DNA from: Cenarchaeum symbiont of Oopsacas minuta
GTDB taxonomy: Archaea; Thermoproteota; Nitrososphaeria; Nitrososphaerales; Nitrosopumilaceae
Direction: 5' to 3'
DNA: 64,000 nucleotides
Assembly (NCBI GenBank): GCA_029948415.1
Contig: JAJIZT010000001.1
Coordinates: 243,030-307,029 of the forward strand
The translations under genes were made by a program, and so were the position numbers. Below, in pieces: positions 1,050-12,952 of the stretch. How positions within the stretch are numbered: the first letter of the stretch is position 1; each line of letters opens with the position of its first letter. Below the pieces are notes generated by a model, which was not told where the DNA came from, searched no databases, and saw nothing but the letters and a program-made list of their open reading frames with translations.

Positions 1050-2428
1050 GCACCGGTGGAATACAGTATAGCAACATTGCCGAGATTAAAGGCCCACTAG
1101 TTGTAGTAGACGGTGTCGAGAATGCCGCCTTTGATGAGCTAGTTGAGATTGAAACCAAAGACGGCGATAAAAGACTAGGCAAAGTACTCGAGATAGGCAA
1201 TGGCAAGGCCATAGTGCAAGTCTTTGAAGGAACTACTGGTCTTTCAATAGCTGGAACCAGCGCAAAGTTCGTAGGTAAAGTCATGGAGATGTCTGTTTCA
1301 AAAGAGATACTCGGTCGTGTCTTTGACGGTCTTGGTCGTCCAAAAGATGGACTACCTGAACCAATTGCAGACAAATTTATAGACATAAACGGCGAGGCGA
1401 TGAATCCAGAACAGCGTGAGTACCCAAAAGACTTTATCCAAACTGGCGTCTCTGTCATAGACGGAATGATAACACTTGTTCGCGGACAAAAACTTCCAAT
1501 ATTCTCAGGCTCTGGTATGTCTCACAATATATTGGCAGCTCAGATTGCGCGTCAGGCCAGTGTGGTAGGTACCGACGAAGACTTTGCTGTCGTGTTTGCC
1601 GCTATTGGGGTACAGTATAGCGAATCTGAATACTTTAGAAAAAGCCTAGAAGAATCAGGCGCATTAAAGAGAAGCGTTTTATTCTTAAATCTTGCAGACG
1701 ATCCGGCAATAGAGAGAATAATTACACCACGTGTGGCACTTACCGTAGCCGAGTATCTTGCATTTGAGCTTGGAATGCACGTGCTAGTAATTCTTACCGA
1801 CATGACAAATTATGCAGAAGCACTCCGTGAGATCAGCGCTGCAAGGGAAGAAGTTCCAGGTCGCAAGGGATATCCAGGATATCTGTATACAGATCTTTCA
1901 ACTATATACGAGAGAGCTGGAAGACTACTTGGTAGAAAAGGTAGCGTCACGCAAGTTCCAATACTTACAATGCCTTCTGATGATATTACTCATCCTATCC
2001 CAGATCTTACTGGATATATCACAGAGGGACAGATTGTTCTTGGCCGTGATCTGTTTAGACAGGGAGTATACCCACCAGTCAACATATTGATGAGTCTTAG
2101 CAGACTAATGAAGGATGGTATAGGCGCAGAAAGCACACGTGATGATCATCAAGAGATTTCAAATCAAAATTATGATTCATATTCACGTGCGCAAGAAGTA
2201 CGTGCCCTAGCTGGCATAGTGGGTAAAGCTGGACTTACTGACATTGACCTAAAGTATATGGACGTGGGCAACTCTTTTGAAAAAAAATTCCTTACTCAAT
2301 CACTTGACGAAAACCGTACCATAGAGGAAACTCTAGGAATATTGTGGGATACAGCTTCAAAGCTTCCGCGTAACGAGCTTACAAAAATAAAAGATAAACA
2401 CATAGACAAATTCTTCAAGGGTGATTAG
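1046..2428 (+). CDS. atpB: V/A-type ATP synthase subunit B (non-catalytic)
   Basis: Regulatory, non-catalytic nucleotide-binding subunit alternating with subunit A in the A1 head. At 460 residues it has the normal full length. Seen in the sequence: the GLGRPKDG segment, [11 protein letters not shown] in place of a canonical P-loop, and [23 protein letters not shown], all typical of B subunits. The start is a TTG at 1046 overlapping the atpA stop; no better ATG lies near it. It overlaps atpD by 8 nt, so A-B-D are co-transcribed. Confidence 0.97.
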
Positions 2429-3065
2429 ACTGTCATTTGATCAAAACGTTGCAGCCACAAAAATTGAATTGCTAAAATACAAACGATCAAAACAAGTTGC
2501 CTCTATGGTTCAAAAAATACTTGACGACAAGCGCAAGGTTTTACTGAAAAATATCGATGAGATGATAAACGAAGCAGAAAAAGCTCGTGGTGGCATATGG
2601 GATCCACTTCAAGATATTTATAAATCCGTAAAAGAGGCATATCTTACACTAGGAGTGAATACAGTAGATACAGTAGCCCAATCCACGCCAGCGGTCATGA
2701 ATATAGAGGTAAGTGTAAAACGCATTGTCGATGTAAAGATACCTAGCATAAAGGTGACTGAAAAAGACACAAAGAGTATTCCGTATGGTTTTGGAGATAC
2801 AAACTCTTCCATAGATAGGGCAGCAAAGCAGATCAAGACGCTGTTACCTCACATATGCAAGGCAGCAGAATATGAAAATTCTATATTTCGCCTCGCAAAA
2901 GCATTAGAAAAAACACAAAAACTGCTAAATGCCCTTGAAAATGTAATAATTCCACAATATCAACAAAGAATAAAATTCATTTTGGGAACTCTTGAAGAGC
3001 GTGAACGCGAGGAATTCGCAAAGTTAAAAAAAGTGAAGGCAGCCATGGAGAAAAGAAAGCAATGA
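2421..3065 (+). CDS. atpD: V/A-type ATP synthase subunit D (central stalk)
   Basis: Central rotor stalk subunit that couples the A1 head to the membrane ring. The protein is 214 residues with long heptad-rich helices at both ends, as expected of the antiparallel coiled coil of subunit D. The N-terminal segment [21 protein letters not shown] and the C-terminal [16 protein letters not shown] region are characteristic. It starts with GTG inside the end of atpB and ends in an ATGA overlap with the following small ORF. Confidence 0.95.
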
Positions 3066-3196
3066 CAAAAAAAGATATAGATAAAATGTTGAGTGATTCA
3101 TCAGTCGCTCTAGACACAGCCCACACTGAATTTCTAAAATCGGTAAAAAATAGTCTACAAAAATACAAAACTGATACGCTTGAAAAAACCAGTTAG
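3062..3196 (+). CDS. Small 44-aa protein at the end of the atpA-B-D operon
   Basis: A 44-residue ORF beginning [10 protein letters not shown] whose ATG overlaps the atpD stop codon (ATGA at 3062-3065), which strongly suggests translational coupling. It is charged, lysine-rich and predicted helical, with no cysteines and no membrane segment. I do not recognise a family. The position suggests a small accessory or peripheral-stalk-like component of the ATP synthase, but that is inference from context alone. Confidence 0.6.
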   Translation: MTKKDIDKMLSDSSVALDTAHTEFLKSVKNSLQKYKTDTLEKTS

Positions 3197-3525
3197 GCAA
3201 TTGTATAAATAAAACAGAGGGTAATGATCTTTACATCATTTTGTGTTAGACTAGATTCTGTACGTGCTCAAAACAATATGATCCATCAGCCATGAGAATA
3301 TCAAAGATATGTCTTTTGCAAGACGAATCAAAAATAGCCAACACTAGTAGAGAACCATGTGGAAAAAGAAATCTTGTTTATAGATTTTACTAGAGATCAC
3401 TCATCACCGTCTGCAGACTCTGGAAAAGTGAAAAATGTTAGAGGAATCCTGATTTTAGCAAGACTGCAAGAAAAACAGCGGCAAAATTTAAGACTTAAAT
3501 AAGGAATATTCTAGATGAAAATTGA
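3197..3525 (+). other. 329-bp gene-free gap between the ATP synthase genes
   Basis: I find no credible ORF or RNA gene here. The sequence has stops in all frames. Near its end lies an AT-rich promoter-like stretch (around 3487-3500, containing TTAAGACTTAAATAAGG) suitably placed to drive the proteolipid gene separately from atpA-B-D. Its length is unusual for this compact genome. Confidence 0.5.
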
Positions 3526-3828
3526 ATGAGAACGTTACTTTTGGTATTTATTGCAACCACAGTACTTGCAAGCTTTGCATTTACTGGTGTAGCATCAGCC
3601 CAAGAATCCTCTAGTTCTTCAGATGGAGAAAAATTTCTCAGTGCAGGTTTAGCCTTTGGTCTAGCAGCATTGGGAGCTGGTATTGGTCTAGCTTATGTGG
3701 GATCTGCAGGTCTTGCAGTCATTAGCGAAAATCCAGCACTCCAGTCAAAGGTATTCATATTTGTTGGAATGGTAGAGTCTATAGCAATATACGGCATTGT
3801 CATGATGTTTATACTACTAGGACAATAG
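3526..3828 (+). CDS. atpK: V/A-type ATP synthase proteolipid subunit K/c with N-terminal signal sequence
   Basis: Membrane rotor-ring subunit that carries the ion during ATP synthesis. The 100-residue protein has an N-terminal hydrophobic signal-like segment ending in an ASA-Q site (about residue 25), a short serine-rich stretch, and two transmembrane helices joined by a polar loop (SENPALQSK). The ion-binding carboxylate is the Glu in GMVESIAIYG of the last helix. It stands 460 nt after atpD with its own promoter-like region. A cleaved leader is inferred from the pattern. Confidence 0.95.
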   Translation: MRTLLLVFIATTVLASFAFTGVASAQESSSSSDGEKFLSAGLAFGLAALGAGIGLAYVGSAGLAVISENPALQSKVFIFVGMVESIAIYGIVMMFILLGQ

Positions 3829-3884
3829 GTAATTATTCACATTACATAAACGCTAAATATGAAATTATACAGCTGTGAATTGTA

Positions 3885-4640
3885 ATGTTTCCAATACGTG
3901 ATGAGAATCCCCACCCACCAGGTTTTAAGCCAAAGCTTACCATAGCTCTTATCATAGTAAATGTGATCGTCTTCTTTTATGAGGTAGCGTATACGGGCCA
4001 ATTTTTAGAATTTACAAATGCTGCTGCATCAAAATTATTTTATGAATGGGGTGCTGTTCCTTCTTGCATTGTACATGGTGCGCTCCCGTCACAGTTTCCA
4101 GTTGACTGTCCACCTACACCGCAGATCTCATTGATCAGTTCTATATTTTTACACGGAGGGCTTATGCATCTTGGAGGGAATATGTTATTTTTATGGATAT
4201 TCGGAGATAACATAGAACACAAATTTGGACGTAGCAAATTTTTTGTAATATATATGGCGTGGGGAGTTGCAGCAGGTTTAGCACATGTGGCAGTGGATCC
4301 TGCTAGCACAATTCCAGCAGTAGGAGCTTCGGGAGCTATATCTGGTGTACTTGGTGCATATCTTGCAATCTTTCCACGTGCAAAGATACAGACGTTTTTG
4401 ATGTTTGGATTCTTTTGGAGAATGATGCGCATAGAAGCTAGATGGTATCTGCCATTTTGGTTTATATTTCAAAATATCCTACCATTTGTTATAGGTGGAT
4501 TCGGATCGGCTGGAGGTGGAGTGGCGTTTATGGCACATATTGGTGGTTTTGCCGTAGGATACGCGGTAGGATTTGTATACAAAAAAATGCATAATACTGA
4601 ATTCACATACGGATCTAGATACGGTTGGCGCGGTGATTAA
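3885..4640 (+). CDS. Rhomboid-family intramembrane serine protease
   Basis: Polytopic membrane protease that cuts substrates within the bilayer. The 251-residue protein has about six transmembrane helices. Catalytic features are all visible: the HLGGN motif at residues 95-99, the GASG motif with Ser149, and the partner His218 in the AHIGG segment of the last-but-one helix. The C-terminal tail is short and cytoplasmic. It is monocistronic and follows atpK by about 55 nt in the same direction. Substrate is unknown. Confidence 0.92.
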   Translation: MFPIRDENPHPPGFKPKLTIALIIVNVIVFFYEVAYTGQFLEFTNAAASKLFYEWGAVPSCIVHGALPSQFPVDCPPTPQISLISSIFLHGGLMHLGGNMLFLWIFGDNIEHKFGRSKFFVIYMAWGVAAGLAHVAVDPASTIPAVGASGAISGVLGAYLAIFPRAKIQTFLMFGFFWRMMRIEARWYLPFWFIFQNILPFVIGGFGSAGGGVAFMAHIGGFAVGYAVGFVYKKMHNTEFTYGSRYGWRGD

Positions 4641-4671
4641 GATTAAATTCCCGATGTGAAACAAAAACTGT

Positions 4672-4848
4672 ATGCCATTGATCAAAGTGTCACTGTATCC
4701 GGGCAGAACTGAAAAACAAAAGAAAGATTTTGCCGAGTCTGTGACTAATTCGGCCGTGGAAATACTTTGTACAAAAAAAGAACATGTCATAGTGGTCTTT
4801 GATGACAATCCATCAGAGAACTGGTTTTTGGCCGGAAACAAACTCTGA
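4672..4848 (+). CDS. 4-oxalocrotonate tautomerase-family protein (58 aa)
   Basis: A very short ORF encoding MPLIKVSLYPGR followed by a helical and a beta-strand part, matching the 4-oxalocrotonate tautomerase fold in length (58 residues) and layout. The catalytic N-terminal proline directly after the initiator Met is present, as is a basic residue at position 12. Such enzymes keto-enol isomerise unsaturated acids; the substrate here is unknown. Its end lies 35 nt before the start chosen for the downstream nitrilase-family gene, so the two are probably co-transcribed. Confidence 0.85.
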   Translation: MPLIKVSLYPGRTEKQKKDFAESVTNSAVEILCTKKEHVIVVFDDNPSENWFLAGNKL

Positions 4849-4882
4849 CTATCTTTTTATTTTTGTACAACATGTACTCTGT

Positions 4883-5695
4883 ATGTCCAAAGTAGCAATA
4901 GTGCAATTCAAGGCGTCAACTGATAAAAACGACAACTTGAAACGGATCATACGATATGTGGAACGTGCGTCTAAACGTGGTGCAGATTTGGTAGCATTTC
5001 CAGAATTTATGATGTTTTATACACCAATCTCACAGACTGCCTCAGAGTTAGAATCCAAAGCAGAGTCGGTACGAGGAAGTTTTGTAACCACAGTTGCAAA
5101 AGCTGCCCGTGACAATTCTATACAAGTGGTAGGAACATTTTATGAAAAAACACAAGATAGAAAAAACCGCGTTTATGACACTTCGTTTTTATTTTCAAAG
5201 ACAGGTAAGATGATATCAAAATATCGTAAAGTACACTTGTATGACGCATTGGGTTTTAGCGAATCTGCAAAAATTGCTGCTGGTTCATCTGTGATAAAAC
5301 CTGTAAAATCAATACTTGGAAAAACAGGAATGATGATATGCTATGATTTGAGATTTCCAGAGATGGCGCGTGCACTTGCAGCCTCTGGCTCACAAGTAAT
5401 GATCGTTCCGTCTGCATGGGTAAAAGGAAATATGAAAGAAGAGCATTGGATTATCATAAATCGTGCAAGAGCTATAGAGAACGGATGCTATGTGATCTCA
5501 CCTAATCATGTGGGAAATATTTACTGTGGAAGAAGTCTTGTGGTAGATCCGTTTGGAAAAATTCTACTAGACATGAAAAAATGTCAAGGCATGAACATTG
5601 TAGAGATATCCATGAAACGAGTAAAAGAAATTCGCAAAGTAATGCCTCTTTTAAAAAACAGAAGAACCGATCTGTATCCAGATATTCGTATCTAA
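4883..5695 (+). CDS. Carbon-nitrogen hydrolase (nitrilase superfamily amidase)
   Basis: Thiol amidohydrolase of the nitrilase superfamily, 270 residues. The Glu-Lys-Cys triad is complete: Glu41 in FPEFMMF, Lys116 in YRKVHLYD and Cys153 in MMICYDLRFPE. The frame is open further upstream, but the ATG at 4883 (MSKVAIVQF) gives the standard N-terminus and avoids overlap with the tautomerase gene. The YDLRFPE context resembles the Nit1/Nit2-type omega-amidase or deaminated-glutathione amidase branch, but substrate cannot be set from sequence. The 3' end overlaps the convergent zinc-finger gene by 4 nt. Confidence 0.9.
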   Translation: MSKVAIVQFKASTDKNDNLKRIIRYVERASKRGADLVAFPEFMMFYTPISQTASELESKAESVRGSFVTTVAKAARDNSIQVVGTFYEKTQDRKNRVYDTSFLFSKTGKMISKYRKVHLYDALGFSESAKIAAGSSVIKPVKSILGKTGMMICYDLRFPEMARALAASGSQVMIVPSAWVKGNMKEEHWIIINRARAIENGCYVISPNHVGNIYCGRSLVVDPFGKILLDMKKCQGMNIVEISMKRVKEIRKVMPLLKNRRTDLYPDIRI

Positions 5696-6123
5696 TCTTT
5701 AGTGAGACATTTCTGATTTGGACACTGTCTACTCCACTTTTGTTTTTTTGAATATCGAAAAATGATGATGGGCCAACCACATTTTTTACAGGCCTGCTTG
5801 AGAGCACGTAAGCGTGCTCGTTGCAATAGCGGTGCAGTTGCAGAACATCCTCCAGAATAGTTGGTACATCCAAGGAATCTTTTTCTTGTCTTTGGTGATC
5901 GAACCACTCGTATGTAACCAAATTTGCATTCGGGACATAAAACAAGACAGCCCTTTGCAGAACTAGTTCCCAATATGACATATTTTTTCTTGGCTATAGA
6001 CCATGAAAGGTACCCGTTTGCGTCATAACATTGTTTAATCTCTTCTTTGAACGAGAGGATTTTGGCTTGAGTTACTTTTACTGAATGCCGTTGTACAAGC
6101 GTCATTCTTTGTTTACGAACCAT
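5692..6123 (-). CDS. Protein with topoisomerase-type C4 zinc fingers
   Basis: A 143-residue protein, starting at the MVRKQRM methionine (ATG at 6121-6123). The C-terminal half holds two topoisomerase-I-like C4 zinc modules: CPEC...GCTNYSGGC and CKKC...CPNQKC. The N-terminal half is basic and not recognised. Topoisomerase-type zinc fingers bind single-stranded DNA, but no topoisomerase catalytic domain is present, so it is probably a stand-alone nucleic-acid-binding protein. It is divergent from the thiolase gene and convergent with the nitrilase-family gene. Confidence 0.75.
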   Translation of the reverse strand: MVRKQRMTLVQRHSVKVTQAKILSFKEEIKQCYDANGYLSWSIAKKKYVILGTSSAKGCLVLCPECKFGYIRVVRSPKTRKRFLGCTNYSGGCSATAPLLQRARLRALKQACKKCGWPIIIFRYSKKQKWSRQCPNQKCLTKD

Positions 6124-7331: not shown

Positions 7332-7697
7332 ATGGCAGATAAAGAAAAATTCATCAATGCTGCAAAGTCGGGCAAAATTCTAGTTGAAAAATGTACAAAA
7401 TGTAGCCATAGGCATCTGGCAACGGTTTATTTTTGTCAAAAATGTGGCGGTTCTGATTTCGTCGATGATCTGTTAAAAGGTTCAGGCAAAGTGGTCACAT
7501 ACACGATAATTACCGTGCCTCCTAGTGGCTTTGAAAAATATGTTCCATATGCGTGGGTGGTCATGAAATTGGACGATTCTGATCTGCGCATTTCGGGATT
7601 TATGACTGGCATAAAAACTCCCTCTGATCTACCGATAGGTACAGAATCTAGAGTAATAGGTTTTGACGATCACGGCATTTTAATCGAACGCAAGTAG
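7332..7697 (+). CDS. DUF35 / OB-fold zinc-ribbon acyl-CoA-associated protein
   Basis: A 121-residue protein with an N-terminal rubredoxin-like zinc ribbon (CTKC...CQKCGG, residues about 21-37) followed by an OB-fold domain, the standard DUF35 architecture. In archaea these proteins form complexes with thiolase and HMG-CoA synthase and help pass the acyl intermediate. It begins 3 nt after the thiolase stop, so a physical partnership with that enzyme is likely. Confidence 0.9.
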   Translation: MADKEKFINAAKSGKILVEKCTKCSHRHLATVYFCQKCGGSDFVDDLLKGSGKVVTYTIITVPPSGFEKYVPYAWVVMKLDDSDLRISGFMTGIKTPSDLPIGTESRVIGFDDHGILIERK

Positions 7698-7855
7698 ATC
7701 TAGCATCCATATACTTGATTTGATATGGTAGTCTGTTGCACAAGCTTTCTAATATTGAAAATATCAGGATGTGATTTGGGTACAAAAACTCGAGTTTTGC
7801 AACTAAATATTGATATGGGAAAATTTTTAATATTATAATTGATTTCATATATGAT

Positions 7856-7999
7856 ATGTCAGTAGATATAGCATGTGGAAAATGCGGCAAAAAAATAACC
7901 ACGTTAAGAATGTTAAAACCCATAAAGGATGTCATGACAGCATATGGTGGCAAATGTCCGTTTGCAAAAAAACTTTATCTACATCAGAATTTTCGATAG
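7856..7999 (+). CDS. Small cysteine-containing protein (47 aa)
   Basis: Short ORF MSVDIACGKCGKK... with a CxxC pair (residues 7 and 10) and a further Cys at residue 34, giving a possible zinc site. It is basic. A strongly AT-rich promoter-like tract (TTTTTAATATTATAATTG) stands about 25-30 nt upstream. I do not recognise the family; it may be a thaumarchaeal small zinc protein. The stretch 7698-7855 before it holds nothing else that I can support. Confidence 0.5.
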   Translation: MSVDIACGKCGKKITTLRMLKPIKDVMTAYGGKCPFAKKLYLHQNFR

Positions 8000-8056
8000 A
8001 TAAAGTGGAAAATTAATCTACAAAAGTCTTATTTAGTGCATGGACAATTATTTCAT

Positions 8057-10144
8057 ATGGAAATGCAAGAAGGTATGGAAACAAAACGTAACGGTTTGCT
8101 TTTGTCACAAGCAAAACGTGTCAAAATGATCTTCTCTGTTATGGCAAGTCCAAACCGTATAGATATTCTCAGAATTTTGAATTCAAAAGGTCCATTGACT
8201 TATTCAGAACTAAAATCTCTCGCAGGATTCAAATCTAAAAAAGAAAGCGGCAAGTTTGCATACCATTTACGCAAGCTACTCAGACAGTCACTGGTCGCTC
8301 TAAACAAATCTGAGCGTAGATATACAATAACCAACTTGGGTCAACTAGTTTTAAGTTTGGCTCGACAGATCGAAGAACGTTCAGTCATAGAAAGTGGCAA
8401 AATGTACGTACGTACCTCCCATGAATCAATTGAAGAATTTGCTTCCCATAAAATTACCCAGTCACTAGCAAAAGAAGGTGGACTACCGGAGAATTTAGCA
8501 CAAAAAATCAGCGAAGAAGTTGAAAATAGAATATACAAATACCAGCCATCGTACCTTACTGGCTCACTCATACGTGAAATGGTAAACGCAGTTCTTATGG
8601 AACATGGACATGAAGAATATAGAAATAAACTTGCGCGACTTGGAATGCCTGTCTATGACATTGCGGACACGTTTTCTAATATTGAAAAAGTAGACAGCGG
8701 AATAGACAGTCTAGTCTCAAAGACTGGATGTACTGTTTTTTCTGAGTTTCTTCTTGCAGAAAAACTTCCAAAAGATATTGCCGACTCTCATCTTAGCGGT
8801 GACTTGCATATTACAAATACGGGCTTGTGGTCACTTTTACCCGATACTATATTTACAAACATAAAAGAACTTGCAGACGATGGACTGGATTTGGGTGGAA
8901 AGCTTCTCAATGTTTCTAGACTCTGTCCAATCAAAACCATAGACGGAATGGCCTCTACACTCTCTATGATCATCTCACTTGTTTCTAGAGAAGCATCTCA
9001 AGAAGTTGTATTGGATGGACTTGTACAACTAGTTTCAAAATATTCAAAAAACGCTGAACTAGAAGAAAAGATCGCCTCTGCATTCTCGACTGCCTCTGCG
9101 TCACTGCAGCAGGGAAAAAATTCAGGAATAGTAACGATCCACTTGGCACTTGGCTCGAACACAAAAATCATACGATCTATAATCTCAGCCTATGTGGAAT
9201 ATGTCAAAATTACCCCAATGCCAAAACTAGGTCTAACAATAGATACGGATGCTGGTTCACTCTCAGACATCTCTGCTGGCCTAGCTGAGGCCATATCGTT
9301 TGGAGGTAGAATATCCATAGGCAAAGGCAGCTTTTCTACAAGAGGAATAGCAAATCGTGCTCCAAAAGGATCTGAACTGCCTGCCCAGAAACTTGAATCT
9401 ATATCCATAAACCTACCTCGTTTGGCTTTTGAAGCAAATAAAGATGAGACTTACTTTAGAGCTAGACTTGCCATGTTGGTAACTCCAGCATTTGCGGCAA
9501 TGGCACAGCGTAAAAAAGACGTGTCTGACATGACAAGACGTGGTTTGAATCCGATTATGGCAAAGAGTACACAATATATGCAGAGAGGATCAACTACTTT
9601 GGTGCTTAATATTGTTGGTTTGCGCGAGGCAGTATATAATATATTAAGTGCAGGTAATGAAAAAAAATACCAAAACACAATATACAAAGTGATAGAAACT
9701 GCCATAGATCGCGCCAAAAAAGAAGGCAAAGCACTTGGTGAAAACATCCACATATCCATGACCGAAAACAGTGGAACGTCTAGATTTTTTGCCCTAGATG
9801 CTGAAAAATATGGGAAAAACTCGGCCATCAAAGATCTAAACGATGAATCATATTTAGAAGGGATCGTATTTGATGGATCAAAAGCAGATGAATACACAGC
9901 CAAGAGCGAAGAGATCATACAATGTAACCGAATGTACAAGTTGCTTAACGGAGGAATGTTAATCAGTCTACAGATTTCAAAAAAAGATAATGCTGCATCG
10001 ATCAAAAACACGATCGAAAAAATGTCAACTCTATTACCATTTTTTAGATCAGAAAAGCCTGTTCCCATGTGTGGTGAATGCGGATACAAAGATGCCGATC
10101 TAGAATCAAAATGTCCTAGATGCAAGTCACCATATATTGTGTAG
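8057..10144 (+). CDS. HTH + ATP-cone + NrdD-like pseudoenzyme, predicted regulator of ribonucleotide reductase
   Basis: About 695 residues in four parts. Residues about 15-95 are an ArsR-like winged helix (ASPNRIDILRIL, then TYSELKSLAG). Residues about 115-200 look like an ATP-cone, the nucleotide sensor of NrdR and ribonucleotide reductases. Residues about 220-650 resemble the anaerobic reductase NrdD (LPKDIADSHLSGDLHI near residue 237, a SINLPRLAFEA segment, an NIVGLREAVYNI segment). A C-terminal CGECGY...CPRC zinc site follows, but the protein ends there: the glycyl-radical motif of NrdD is absent, so reductase activity is unlikely. It precedes nrdJ in the same direction. A GTG at 8036 is an alternative start; the TATTTA box at 8030-8035 favours ATG 8057. 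Confidence 0.75.
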   Translation: MEMQEGMETKRNGLLLSQAKRVKMIFSVMASPNRIDILRILNSKGPLTYSELKSLAGFKSKKESGKFAYHLRKLLRQSLVALNKSERRYTITNLGQLVLSLARQIEERSVIESGKMYVRTSHESIEEFASHKITQSLAKEGGLPENLAQKISEEVENRIYKYQPSYLTGSLIREMVNAVLMEHGHEEYRNKLARLGMPVYDIADTFSNIEKVDSGIDSLVSKTGCTVFSEFLLAEKLPKDIADSHLSGDLHITNTGLWSLLPDTIFTNIKELADDGLDLGGKLLNVSRLCPIKTIDGMASTLSMIISLVSREASQEVVLDGLVQLVSKYSKNAELEEKIASAFSTASASLQQGKNSGIVTIHLALGSNTKIIRSIISAYVEYVKITPMPKLGLTIDTDAGSLSDISAGLAEAISFGGRISIGKGSFSTRGIANRAPKGSELPAQKLESISINLPRLAFEANKDETYFRARLAMLVTPAFAAMAQRKKDVSDMTRRGLNPIMAKSTQYMQRGSTTLVLNIVGLREAVYNILSAGNEKKYQNTIYKVIETAIDRAKKEGKALGENIHISMTENSGTSRFFALDAEKYGKNSAIKDLNDESYLEGIVFDGSKADEYTAKSEEIIQCNRMYKLLNGGMLISLQISKKDNAASIKNTIEKMSTLLPFFRSEKPVPMCGECGYKDADLESKCPRCKSPYIV

Positions 10145-10152
10145 CAGATATG

Positions 10153-10195
10153 ATTCTGATCGCACATGTACTCCGATCATTCTGATCGCACATGT
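10153..10195 (+). repeat. Two 17-bp direct repeats between the NrdD-like gene and nrdJ
   Basis: ATTCTGATCGCACATGT occurs exactly at 10153-10169 and again at 10179-10195, a 26-bp period. The second copy runs into GCG to complete a CGCACATGTGCG palindrome. Placement in the 153-bp gap before nrdJ fits either an operator or part of a terminator. Confidence 0.75.
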
Positions 10196-10210
10196 GCGCT
10201 AATTTTTTTT
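10187..10210 (+). terminator. Possible transcription terminator after the NrdD-like gene
   Basis: The palindrome CGCACATGTGCG (10187-10198) is followed by a run of eight T at 10203-10210. Archaeal termination mostly depends on the T-run. It would separate the NrdD-like gene from nrdJ. Confidence 0.45.
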
Positions 10211-10297
10211 CGCAAAAAAAATTGATAAACGGTTAACGAAAAATCAACTAAATTGTTATAACCACCTAAATCCAAACCATAATGGTGTCATTATAGC

Positions 10298-12952
10298 GTG
10301 GATCGTATCTCTACAATTGAAACAAATATCGACTCTATAAAGAAAAGAAGTGGCTCTATGGTCTCATTTAGTCTCGTACAGGTATCTAGTGCCATATACA
10401 AGGCTCTATCTGCCACAGGCAACTCTGATAGGACACTAGCAGACAAGATCTCAAAAGCCGTTTTAAACAAACTAGCAAAGCATGGTTTCTCCTCATCACA
10501 TGCACCCACCGTAGAAGACATACAGGACATGGTAGAGTCTACGTTAATCGAACTTGATCACAGCGAAGCTGCAAAGGCATTCATTCTGTATAGACATGAA
10601 CGTCGTAAAATTCGTGAAGCAAAGATGAAAGTATTAAACTCCACCACTTTGGATTATGTGGCAAAAACGTTTGATATAAACTGCCTAAAGATACTAGCTT
10701 CACGCTATCTGCTACGTAACAACAAAGGAGAGATAACCGAAAGTCCAGAACAGATGTTTAGACGCGTTGCCATATTGATTACCATAGGAGATATTTTGTA
10801 CGATTCAAAAGTATTTGACAGTGTTGGAAACATAAAACAAGACACAAATGTTGCAGAGTCATATTATGCAAAGCTAGACAGCTTTGATTTCAAATTCAAA
10901 ATTGGAGAACAATATTTGAATAAATATCATTTTCGTTCTCTCATAGGGCATTACATCACGTTGGCAAAAAATGGAAACATAAAAGTAGGATTCAAACAGC
11001 TTTTGACAATGTTAGTTGCCAAAAAATTTGATTCGTATGCAACAAAGATAGATGAATATACAAAAATGATGACCATGCAAAATTTTCTACCAAATTCGCC
11101 AACAATGATGAATGCTGGTGCAAGATTAGGTCAGCTCTCTGCATGTTTTGTGTTAGATATGCAAGATGATATGGCAAAGATAATGAAGTCTACCACCGAT
11201 GCAGCGCTGATTTTCAAGTCTGGCGGTGGAGTGGGAATAAACTATTCTTCACTTCGTCAGGAAGGCGACATAGTGGCATCCACTTCAGGCGTTGCATCCG
11301 GACCAGTCTCATTCATGAACATCATAAACACCGTAACAGAGGTAGTAAAACAAGGTGGCAAACGCCGTGGCGCAAACATGGGAATCATGGACGTCTGGCA
11401 TCCTGACATTGAATCGTTCATCACACACAAAACAGAACCAGGAAATCTTGAAAACTTTAACGTTAGTATCGGTATTTGGGAAGACTTTTGGAAGGCGTTA
11501 ACAGATTCAAAAGATGGCAAGTACATGTTACGTAGTGCACGTGACCAAACACCCGTGCGTGAGATAAATGCGCATCAGTTAATGGATGTAATTGCAATGT
11601 CTGCATGGAAGAGTGCAGAACCGGGTCTAATATTCTTCGATCAGATAAACAAGTACAATGTTTTTGCCAAAGCCCGTGGCGGTCCGATACGCGCAACAAA
11701 CCCGTGCGGCGAACAGAGTCTATACCCTTACGAATCATGTAATTTGGGCTCGATAAACATTGCAAATTTGGTAAAACATACAGCCGACGGTCAGTACAAA
11801 TTTGACTGGCAAGGATATGAAGAGATAATCCGCAAGACTACAAAATATCTAGATAATGTAATTGACGTAAATCTCTATCCTGTAGACGATATTGATCGTG
11901 CATCTAAAGAATCTCGTCGCATAGGACTTGGAGTAATGGGCGTTGCTGATCTGCTCTATAAACTACGTATACCATATAACTCAAAACAAGGCTATGATCT
12001 ACAATCAAAGCTTGCCGAAGCTCTCACATACTATTCCATGGAGGAGAGTGTAGCACTTGCAAAAACACGCGGTGCTTTCCCACTGTGCTCAAAGACAGAA
12101 TATGCAGAAGGCAAGATTCCTGTGGCTGGTTATTATGAAACTCCAAAAGATCAACATAGCTACGATTGGGATGCTCTAATTGAAAAAATAAAGATACATG
12201 GAATACGCAATGTACTAACAACCACTGTTGCTCCAACTGGAACGCTGTCTATGATCGCAGACTGTGCAAACGGCATGGAACCTACATTTGCATTGGTCTT
12301 TGAAAAACGTGTAACTGTAGGACGCTTTTTCTACACAAACAAGATTATCGAACAAATACTAAAAGATGAGAACATTTACAGCGATGAGATTTTGGAAAAA
12401 ATAGCAGACAACTATGGTTCGATGCGCGGTATAGATGAAATTCCAACATGGATGCAAAATATCTACGTTACGGCAATGGATATACATTGGTCAGATCACC
12501 TGATGGCTCAGGCAGTTTGGCAAAAATGGATTGGCAATGCAATCGCAAAGACAATCAATATGCCATATGATGTGACCACCGAGGACGTCAAAGCTGCCTA
12601 TCTTTTGGCTCATGAGCTTGGACTAAAGGGCATTACCGTATACAGAGACGGTTCTAGGCACAAACAAGTATTACACATGACTAGCGACAAGGCACAAAAG
12701 ACTTTTGACGTAAAGCCTAGCGAACACACCAAAGAATTTGTCCAATCAAATATCCACAACGAATACATAAAAACTCACATTATCACGGCACTCAACACTA
12801 CAATTCCCAACGATCCTATACTCGAACCTACACCGATGACTGAAACGATCCCAGAAGATTCTTTGTGTCCAACTTGCAAGAATATACTAATCTTTTCTGA
12901 AGGATGTAGTACCTGTATAGAATGCGGTCACAGCGGATGTACCTCTGGCTAA
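10298..12952 (+). CDS. nrdJ: Adenosylcobalamin-dependent (class II) ribonucleoside-diphosphate reductase
   Basis: Makes deoxyribonucleotides using a B12 radical, 884 residues. An N-terminal ATP-cone (about residues 15-105) serves as allosteric site. The barrel contains NPCGEQSLYPYE near residues 468-479 with the radical-site Cys470, and the LxxTVAPTGTLSMIADC phosphate-binding stretch. The C-terminus carries a redox/zinc tail CPTC...CIECGHSGC. GTG at 10298 is the first possible start after an in-frame stop; a later ATG at 10358 would remove part of the cone. AT-rich box TTATAA lies about 40 nt upstream. Confidence 0.93.
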   Translation: MDRISTIETNIDSIKKRSGSMVSFSLVQVSSAIYKALSATGNSDRTLADKISKAVLNKLAKHGFSSSHAPTVEDIQDMVESTLIELDHSEAAKAFILYRHERRKIREAKMKVLNSTTLDYVAKTFDINCLKILASRYLLRNNKGEITESPEQMFRRVAILITIGDILYDSKVFDSVGNIKQDTNVAESYYAKLDSFDFKFKIGEQYLNKYHFRSLIGHYITLAKNGNIKVGFKQLLTMLVAKKFDSYATKIDEYTKMMTMQNFLPNSPTMMNAGARLGQLSACFVLDMQDDMAKIMKSTTDAALIFKSGGGVGINYSSLRQEGDIVASTSGVASGPVSFMNIINTVTEVVKQGGKRRGANMGIMDVWHPDIESFITHKTEPGNLENFNVSIGIWEDFWKALTDSKDGKYMLRSARDQTPVREINAHQLMDVIAMSAWKSAEPGLIFFDQINKYNVFAKARGGPIRATNPCGEQSLYPYESCNLGSINIANLVKHTADGQYKFDWQGYEEIIRKTTKYLDNVIDVNLYPVDDIDRASKESRRIGLGVMGVADLLYKLRIPYNSKQGYDLQSKLAEALTYYSMEESVALAKTRGAFPLCSKTEYAEGKIPVAGYYETPKDQHSYDWDALIEKIKIHGIRNVLTTTVAPTGTLSMIADCANGMEPTFALVFEKRVTVGRFFYTNKIIEQILKDENIYSDEILEKIADNYGSMRGIDEIPTWMQNIYVTAMDIHWSDHLMAQAVWQKWIGNAIAKTINMPYDVTTEDVKAAYLLAHELGLKGITVYRDGSRHKQVLHMTSDKAQKTFDVKPSEHTKEFVQSNIHNEYIKTHIITALNTTIPNDPILEPTPMTETIPEDSLCPTCKNILIFSEGCSTCIECGHSGCTSG

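Follow-up and report, generated by a model that had tools for sequence, protein, structure and literature searches.

A catalytically dead class III ribonucleotide reductase as a probable regulator of the neighboring reductase gene in Nitrososphaerales

A stretch of 64,000 nucleotides from the Cenarchaeum symbiont of Oopsacas minuta (GenBank assembly GCA_029948415.1, contig JAJIZT010000001.1), referred to here as the window, encodes a protein that joins a winged helix to an ATP-cone and to a body resembling NrdD, the anaerobic (class III) ribonucleotide reductase (RNR). The gene lies directly upstream of nrdJ, which encodes an adenosylcobalamin-dependent RNR. We propose that this protein, hereafter the regulator, is likely a catalytically dead class III RNR turned transcription factor that controls the adjacent RNR gene. 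Nucleotide-sensing RNR regulators are already known as a kind; the origin from a dead NrdD is unusual, and the regulator is probably an undescribed kind of RNR switch. Our literature search turned up no RNR-gene regulator for this archaeal group. In the titles and abstract beginnings covered, a fusion of a dead NrdD with a winged helix was not described, an early mention of such fusions being possible.

Results

The regulator frame (8036-10144, forward strand) spans 702 open codons, and residue numbers are counted from its GTG at 8036; the homology of most close relatives starts near ATG 8057. The winged helix exceeds the curated Pfam cut-offs of both DUF7347 (40.6 bits; cut-off, 27.6) and HTH_20 (32.6 bits; cut-off, 27), and the Pfam NRDD match, at residues 452-698, is likewise over its curated cut-off. 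NCBIfam NrdD models match the regulator far under their cut-offs (e.g., 81 versus 326 bits for TIGR02487). When the single sequence was compared to the Protein Data Bank with phmmer, only one weak ArsR match (E of 1) was returned, and a family profile was required instead. The layout recurs in a diverse alignment of 39 members (A1, which leaves out the short members L053-L056; L and G numbers label loci and genomes), in which DUF7347, the ATP-cone, and NRDD are matched in all 39 and HTH_20 in 33 (E <= 0.01). A second alignment (A2) used 54 of 80 named loci, with L112 excluded for a stop inside the frame and 25 further named loci not included. Relatives were read as stop-to-stop frames, so some carry residues ahead of the true start.

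To assess catalysis, 43 family members (the window's and 42 others) were aligned with four true NrdDs adjoining some of them, and catalytic roles were carried over by sequence alignment from the P. copri enzyme, whose catalytic cysteines are given as Cys171 and Cys416 (PMC11226230). The preliminary description of this DNA had suggested looking for these cysteines; Cys is present at neither column in any family member (0/43 and 0/43) versus 4/4 and 4/4 true NrdDs. The NxN flap has both Asn residues in none of the 43 and the second Asn alone in six. No family member has the R-x-x-G-Y glycyl-radical motif near its C terminus; the radical-glycine column holds Gly in one (L052, where the motif is absent), and L041 has a displaced S-R-T-A-S-G-Y. 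The corresponding S-R-[IV]-T-G-Y-Y-Q is kept in all 30 members of a wider true NrdD set, two of which are shared with the four aligned. All four zinc cysteines are retained in 39/43 family members, several distant relatives have a degenerate tail after the zinc site, and the regulator's own open reading frame (ORF) stops six codons past that site without a glycyl-radical loop. The winged helix, ATP-cone, NrdD-like body, and zinc site read in the preliminary description are thus borne out by Pfam profiles and alignment, as are the missing glycyl-radical segment and the proposal that an anaerobic reductase had lost its catalysis.

The same description had named a glycyl-radical reductase encoded elsewhere as evidence to the contrary. 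In the organism's own genome (1.63 Mb, 96% complete) the regulator is the sole NRDD match, with no second NrdD, and the one PF02867 match is the nrdJ beside it. Among 21 sampled genomes, the activase NrdG was above the TIGR02491 cut-off in none (weaker matches in 20), and a class I/II-type RNR was present in all 21. As judged from sequence, the regulator derives from a class III RNR and is itself not one: it has no intact radical loop, neither catalytic cysteine, and no flap, and no activase passes the cut-off in the sampled genomes.

Conservation was compared among 39 dead-family rows, 24 rows from the window's order, and 32 true NrdDs, excluding the short members. Averaged over sequence pairs, identity among the dead-family rows is 0.52 for the winged helix, 0.63 for the cone, and 0.28 and 0.29 for the barrel halves; the order rows alone give 0.78, 0.69, and 0.33 and 0.36, respectively. 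The pattern is reversed in true NrdDs (cone, 0.56; barrel halves, 0.67 and 0.57). These figures indicate that selection preserves the parts for binding DNA and nucleotides and that the formerly catalytic body is drifting. Cone arginines R126 and R180 are present in 43/43 family members, and the winged-helix stretch SGKFAYHLRK is identical across all 24 order rows. When 43 dead and 32 true sequences were placed in one tree, a single branch with support of 100 parted the groups, which is compatible with a single origin of the dead family, the tree being a quick one with long branches and no outside root.

Sampling of the family and order found the regulator gene in 60/61 genomes, spanning 42/42 genera. 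In a phylum sample, 221/300 genomes have a match at an E value of 1e-3, the weakest of which may be cone or helix only. A survey of gene neighborhoods across the thaumarchaea, as the preliminary description had recommended, ties the gene closely to RNR: an RNR gene lies downstream on the same strand in 120/121 loci, the exception being a locus cut by the contig end. These loci comprise the window, 40 from genome samples (own copy included), and 80 named relatives, which are the best 80 of 537 related stretches and mostly belong to Nitrosopumilus, Nitrosarchaeum, Nitrosotenuis, and other Thaumarchaeota; on this basis we take their family to be that of the window. Some genomes are counted twice: the gene in the window recurs as L001 and L061, and L011/L101, L012/L097, and L015/L116 are duplicates by coordinates. 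The gap between regulator and RNR gene is 153 bp in the window, mostly about 200 bp elsewhere, and above 1 kb in L021 and L112. By positions, an RNR match adjoins the regulator in all 20 gene-bearing genomes of the 21-genome sample. The adjacent NrdJ varies in type, with an ATP-cone (window, L037, and L039), without one (L031, L036, and L041), or of the type in L029 and L033; elsewhere in the phylum, the RNR neighbor of five loci is a true class III NrdD (L042, L045, L058, and L059) or an NrdJ (L041). The linkage therefore outlasts replacement of the RNR enzyme, which goes beyond what the preliminary description had claimed.

Also beyond that claim, the upstream regions of the regulator and of RNR share an over-represented word. 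In the window's family, GATC occurs 330 times upstream of nrdJ versus 102.9 in shuffles (101 loci) and 243 times upstream of the regulator versus 58.5 (100 loci), with no excess in the other intergenic DNA of those loci (81 versus 105.4; 187 regions). GATC stands at 3.4- to 3.5-fold in both target regions, which are the two densest gaps in 61/79 loci. With near copies removed (26 sets), the counts are 76 versus 26.1 for nrdJ, 54 versus 14.5 for the regulator, and 28 versus 34.5 for the control; GATC ranks at the top of 136 4-mers and GATCA at the top of 512 5-mers in both regions. The near-copy-free counts and word ranks for the regulator-upstream stretches rest on an estimated start. GATC spacing has a period of about 10 bp (Rayleigh P of ~1e-6 at 10.0 and ~1e-5 at 10.5; 27 sets from 98 loci, with nonindependent pairs). 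L025 was grouped with the window's family in the full GATC counts and the spacing and with other families in the near-copy-free counts and ranks. At least four genomes (G003, G029, G151, and G197) have a GATC triplet just before the regulator or nrdJ.

GATC as an order-wide operator was rejected, being unsupported outside the window's family (16 loci; 8 versus 10.1 and 7 versus 9.2). For these loci, the RNR-upstream region was taken as the 200 bp that follow the regulator, so that shorter gaps bring in some RNR coding sequence. Their best joint 5-mer of 512 is GTCAA (27 versus 7.8 and 15 versus 5.0; control, 22 versus 19.4), which was first spotted by looking and then ranked against all words.

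In the window itself, GATC falls within the two direct repeats that follow the regulator (Table 1), at 10158 and 10184, and a third copy is at 10175. The 16-nucleotide repeat core, TTCTGATCGCACATGT, has no other site with zero or one mismatch in the 1.63-Mb genome and one site with two; allowing up to three mismatches, at least two matches arose in 20/100 window shuffles, and both real copies are exact. A T-run after the repeats means that they may belong to a terminator. Separately, an inverted repeat, AATTTTTTTT / AAAAAAAATT, at 10201-10223 is a possible terminator after the regulator. Upstream of the TATA-like element, many relatives in the window's family carry the palindrome TATGAA-N-TTCATA as well as a GTGTnAA...TTGA block, neither of which occupies that place in the window. 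No cobalamin riboswitch or other known RNA was matched by Rfam in 7600-10500 up to an E value of 1.

Table 1. Features of the regulator locus in window coordinates
Feature	Position	Strand	Remarks
Helix-turn-helix/ATP-cone/dead-NrdD protein (regulator)	8057..10144	+	695 aa from ATG; ORF open from GTG 8036
Winged helix-turn-helix (DUF7347/HTH_20)	8129..8353	+	Residues 32-106; Pfam
ATP-cone	8402..8620	+	Residues 123-195; Pfam, above curated cut-off
NrdD-like barrel	8690..10051	+	Residues 219-672; neither catalytic cysteine, no NxN flap
NrdD-type zinc site	10070..10123	+	C679, C682, C693, C696; sequence alignment
Two 20-nucleotide direct repeats	10150-10169, 10176-10195	+	19/20 identical, 26 bp apart; candidate operator or terminator
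TATA-like element	10256..10261	+	About 37 bp before nrdJ start; aligned by eye with conserved TTATA of relatives
nrdJ, adenosylcobalamin-dependent (class II) RNR	10298..12952	+	Own ATP-cone; presumed target; profile matches

Further observations concern neighboring genes and carriers. A microprotein of about 53 amino acids with two CxxC pairs is encoded on the same strand directly upstream of the regulator in 88/96 loci; the window's copy (7857-8015) is frameshifted and lacks the second CxxC. The NrdJ of L038 (frame 2346-5792, minus strand; 1,149 amino acids) carries a long insertion, probably an intein, with a match to a replicative-helicase model at residues 251-541. Contigs titled Phycisphaerales and Proteobacteria (L084 and L137) contain the archaeal locus at 63-64% identity and are probably misbinned. 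Viral carriers were dismissed, as none of 72 pattern matches in viral contigs was related by tblastn.

Comparison with known systems

NrdR, a protein of 140 to 220 residues whose N-terminal zinc ribbon is the DNA-binding part (PMC9110341), also has an ATP-cone. However, NrdR consists of the zinc ribbon and the cone, whereas the regulator consists of a winged helix, a cone, a whole dead NrdD barrel, and a C-terminal zinc site, and TIGR00244 is not among its ten NCBIfam matches up to an E value of 1. The earlier suggestion of a design different from NrdR thus holds for sequence, domain order, and DNA-binding part. By analogy, the regulator would act as NrdR does but be built from different parts. 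With true NrdD (PF13597) it shares the barrel fold, the zinc site, the N-terminal ATP-cone, and ancestry, but it is without the catalytic cysteines, the NxN flap, and an intact radical loop, has gained a winged helix, and inverts the conservation pattern. Its DNA-binding domain is by profile of the same type as the ArsR/HTH_20-type winged helix (DUF7347, PF24038), here fused to an ATP-cone and an NrdD barrel.

In archaea, NrdR is reported to be uncommon (PMC12176259). In the phylum sample, 22/300 genomes have a match over the TIGR00244 cut-off, and every one of them belongs to a single family (f18) that is not part of the window's order; the roughly 50 order members gave no NrdR above the cut-off and one match below it. 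In f18, NrdR adjoins a true nrdD in at least 13/22 genomes; in the rows compared, the gene for the dead NrdD is at a different place. Frames of about 95 to 115 amino acids (e.g., in G097, G074, and G121) match only the ATP-cone of the NrdR model, below the cut-off, and are possible stand-alone ATP-cones. For NrdR boxes, a consensus search of the window gave 13 matches versus 7.8 expected, within the range of chance (as many arose in 13/100 shuffles), and the best site (two mismatches, 10127-10142) lies inside the coding end of the regulator.

Discussion

A switch of the following kind would fit these features. The winged helix would bind DNA upstream of two genes, the regulator's own and the adjacent RNR gene, and the cone would bind ATP or dATP, reading the balance of the two. 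Nucleotide binding would alter the association of the dead NrdD barrels and thereby determine how far apart the DNA-binding heads sit. At high dATP, binding and repression of nrdJ and of the regulator itself would be favored, and ATP would release it, presumably with this sign. ATP-cones are described as binding ATP/dATP and changing oligomers in RNRs and NrdR (PMC9110341, PMC11226230, and PMC12176259), and true NrdD forms dimers and tetramers (PMC11226230). The retained barrel may be best explained as an oligomer frame, possibly with a retained specificity site for other deoxynucleotides (dNTPs).

Several observations weigh against this reading. The presumed DNA-contacting stretch is near-invariant in the order and the enriched word is lineage dependent, GTCAA not being enriched in the window's family (19 versus 13.1 and 1 versus 8.7); the words may therefore belong to another factor. 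In the window, the 130 bp immediately preceding the regulator contain no GATC, and the use of GATC triplets to look for a regulon in eight genomes was unspecific (8 to 16 per genome versus 4 to 14 in the reversed control), so such triplets are not special to the regulator locus. Models of the N terminus are weak as regards the winged helix. One genome (G042, 99% complete) has RNR without the regulator gene, which its genus mate possesses, and family f18 has both NrdR and the dead-NrdD gene. Outside the order, an NrdJ- or NrdD-like neighbor was found in only 5/14 long-type loci with room for one, a convergent gene resembling aspartate carbamoyltransferase (pyrB-like, by eye) was found in six (L043, L044, L046, L047, L049, and L057), and the short members have no NrdJ- or NrdD-like match beside them.

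GATC and GTCAA could be bound by another factor, be methylation marks, or be terminator derived, with the operator elsewhere, for example at the TATGAA-TTCATA palindrome; this is possible, though we rate it below even, and it is compatible with control of the RNR gene by the regulator. The lineage dependence of the word, the terminator-like T-run behind the window's repeats, and conservation of the palindrome in aligned nrdJ upstream regions of many relatives are consistent with it, whereas one word topping both upstream regions without excess in other intergenic DNA argues the other way.

The pyrB-like genes hint at a link to pyrimidine synthesis outside the order. Together with a pyrI-like gene beside the regulator in L050 (product read from sequence by eye), they would suit a nucleotide-responsive DNA-binding regulator whose main targets lie elsewhere, in pyrimidine synthesis or a wider nucleotide regulon, with the RNR site one of several, as would the 9/14 long-type loci outside the order without a downstream NrdJ- or NrdD-like neighbor. 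Given the strict RNR linkage within the order and the word common to the regulator and RNR upstream regions, we consider this unlikely.

Less probable still is action on the NrdJ protein, in which a dead subunit would inhibit or stabilize the enzyme and the winged helix would serve protein contacts. Adjacency to nrdJ, the dimers and tetramers of true NrdD, and retention of a whole barrel that a plain DNA-binding switch does not need point that way; however, the gene persists beside differing NrdJ types and class III NrdD, a succession that a specific contact would hardly survive, and the winged helix is among the best-conserved parts. It is highly improbable that the protein has kept enzymatic activity, whether as a class III RNR whose radical site is unusual or as a different glycyl-radical enzyme, since the NRDD match, intact zinc site, weak YjjI-like matches in 5/39 members, and a glycine close to the radical site in each of L052 and L041 are set against the loss of both cysteines, flap, and intact radical motif in 43/43, the absence of NrdG above cut-off in 21 genomes, relaxed barrel conservation, and a class I/II-type RNR in 21/21.

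Regulation of the adjacent RNR gene by a dead NrdD remains our preferred explanation, and we lean slightly toward a history to match. A class III RNR would have been converted once, early in the archaeal phylum, to a dNTP-sensing RNR regulator, which kept its locus while the enzyme beside it was exchanged (class III NrdD and several class II NrdJ types); in ammonia-oxidizing archaea this fossil of an anaerobic enzyme would govern its B12-dependent replacement and stand in for NrdR. Direct tests are feasible, as two regions are candidate promoters, the ligand pair is defined, and the 537 related stretches offer hundreds of natural variants. If true, the finding would supply an RNR regulator for the order (60/61 sampled genomes), including Nitrosopumilus and its kin, which are abundant marine ammonia oxidizers. 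It would also provide a second, differently built case of an ATP-cone serving both RNR activity and RNR expression and a clear case of an enzyme that has become the regulator of its own replacement.
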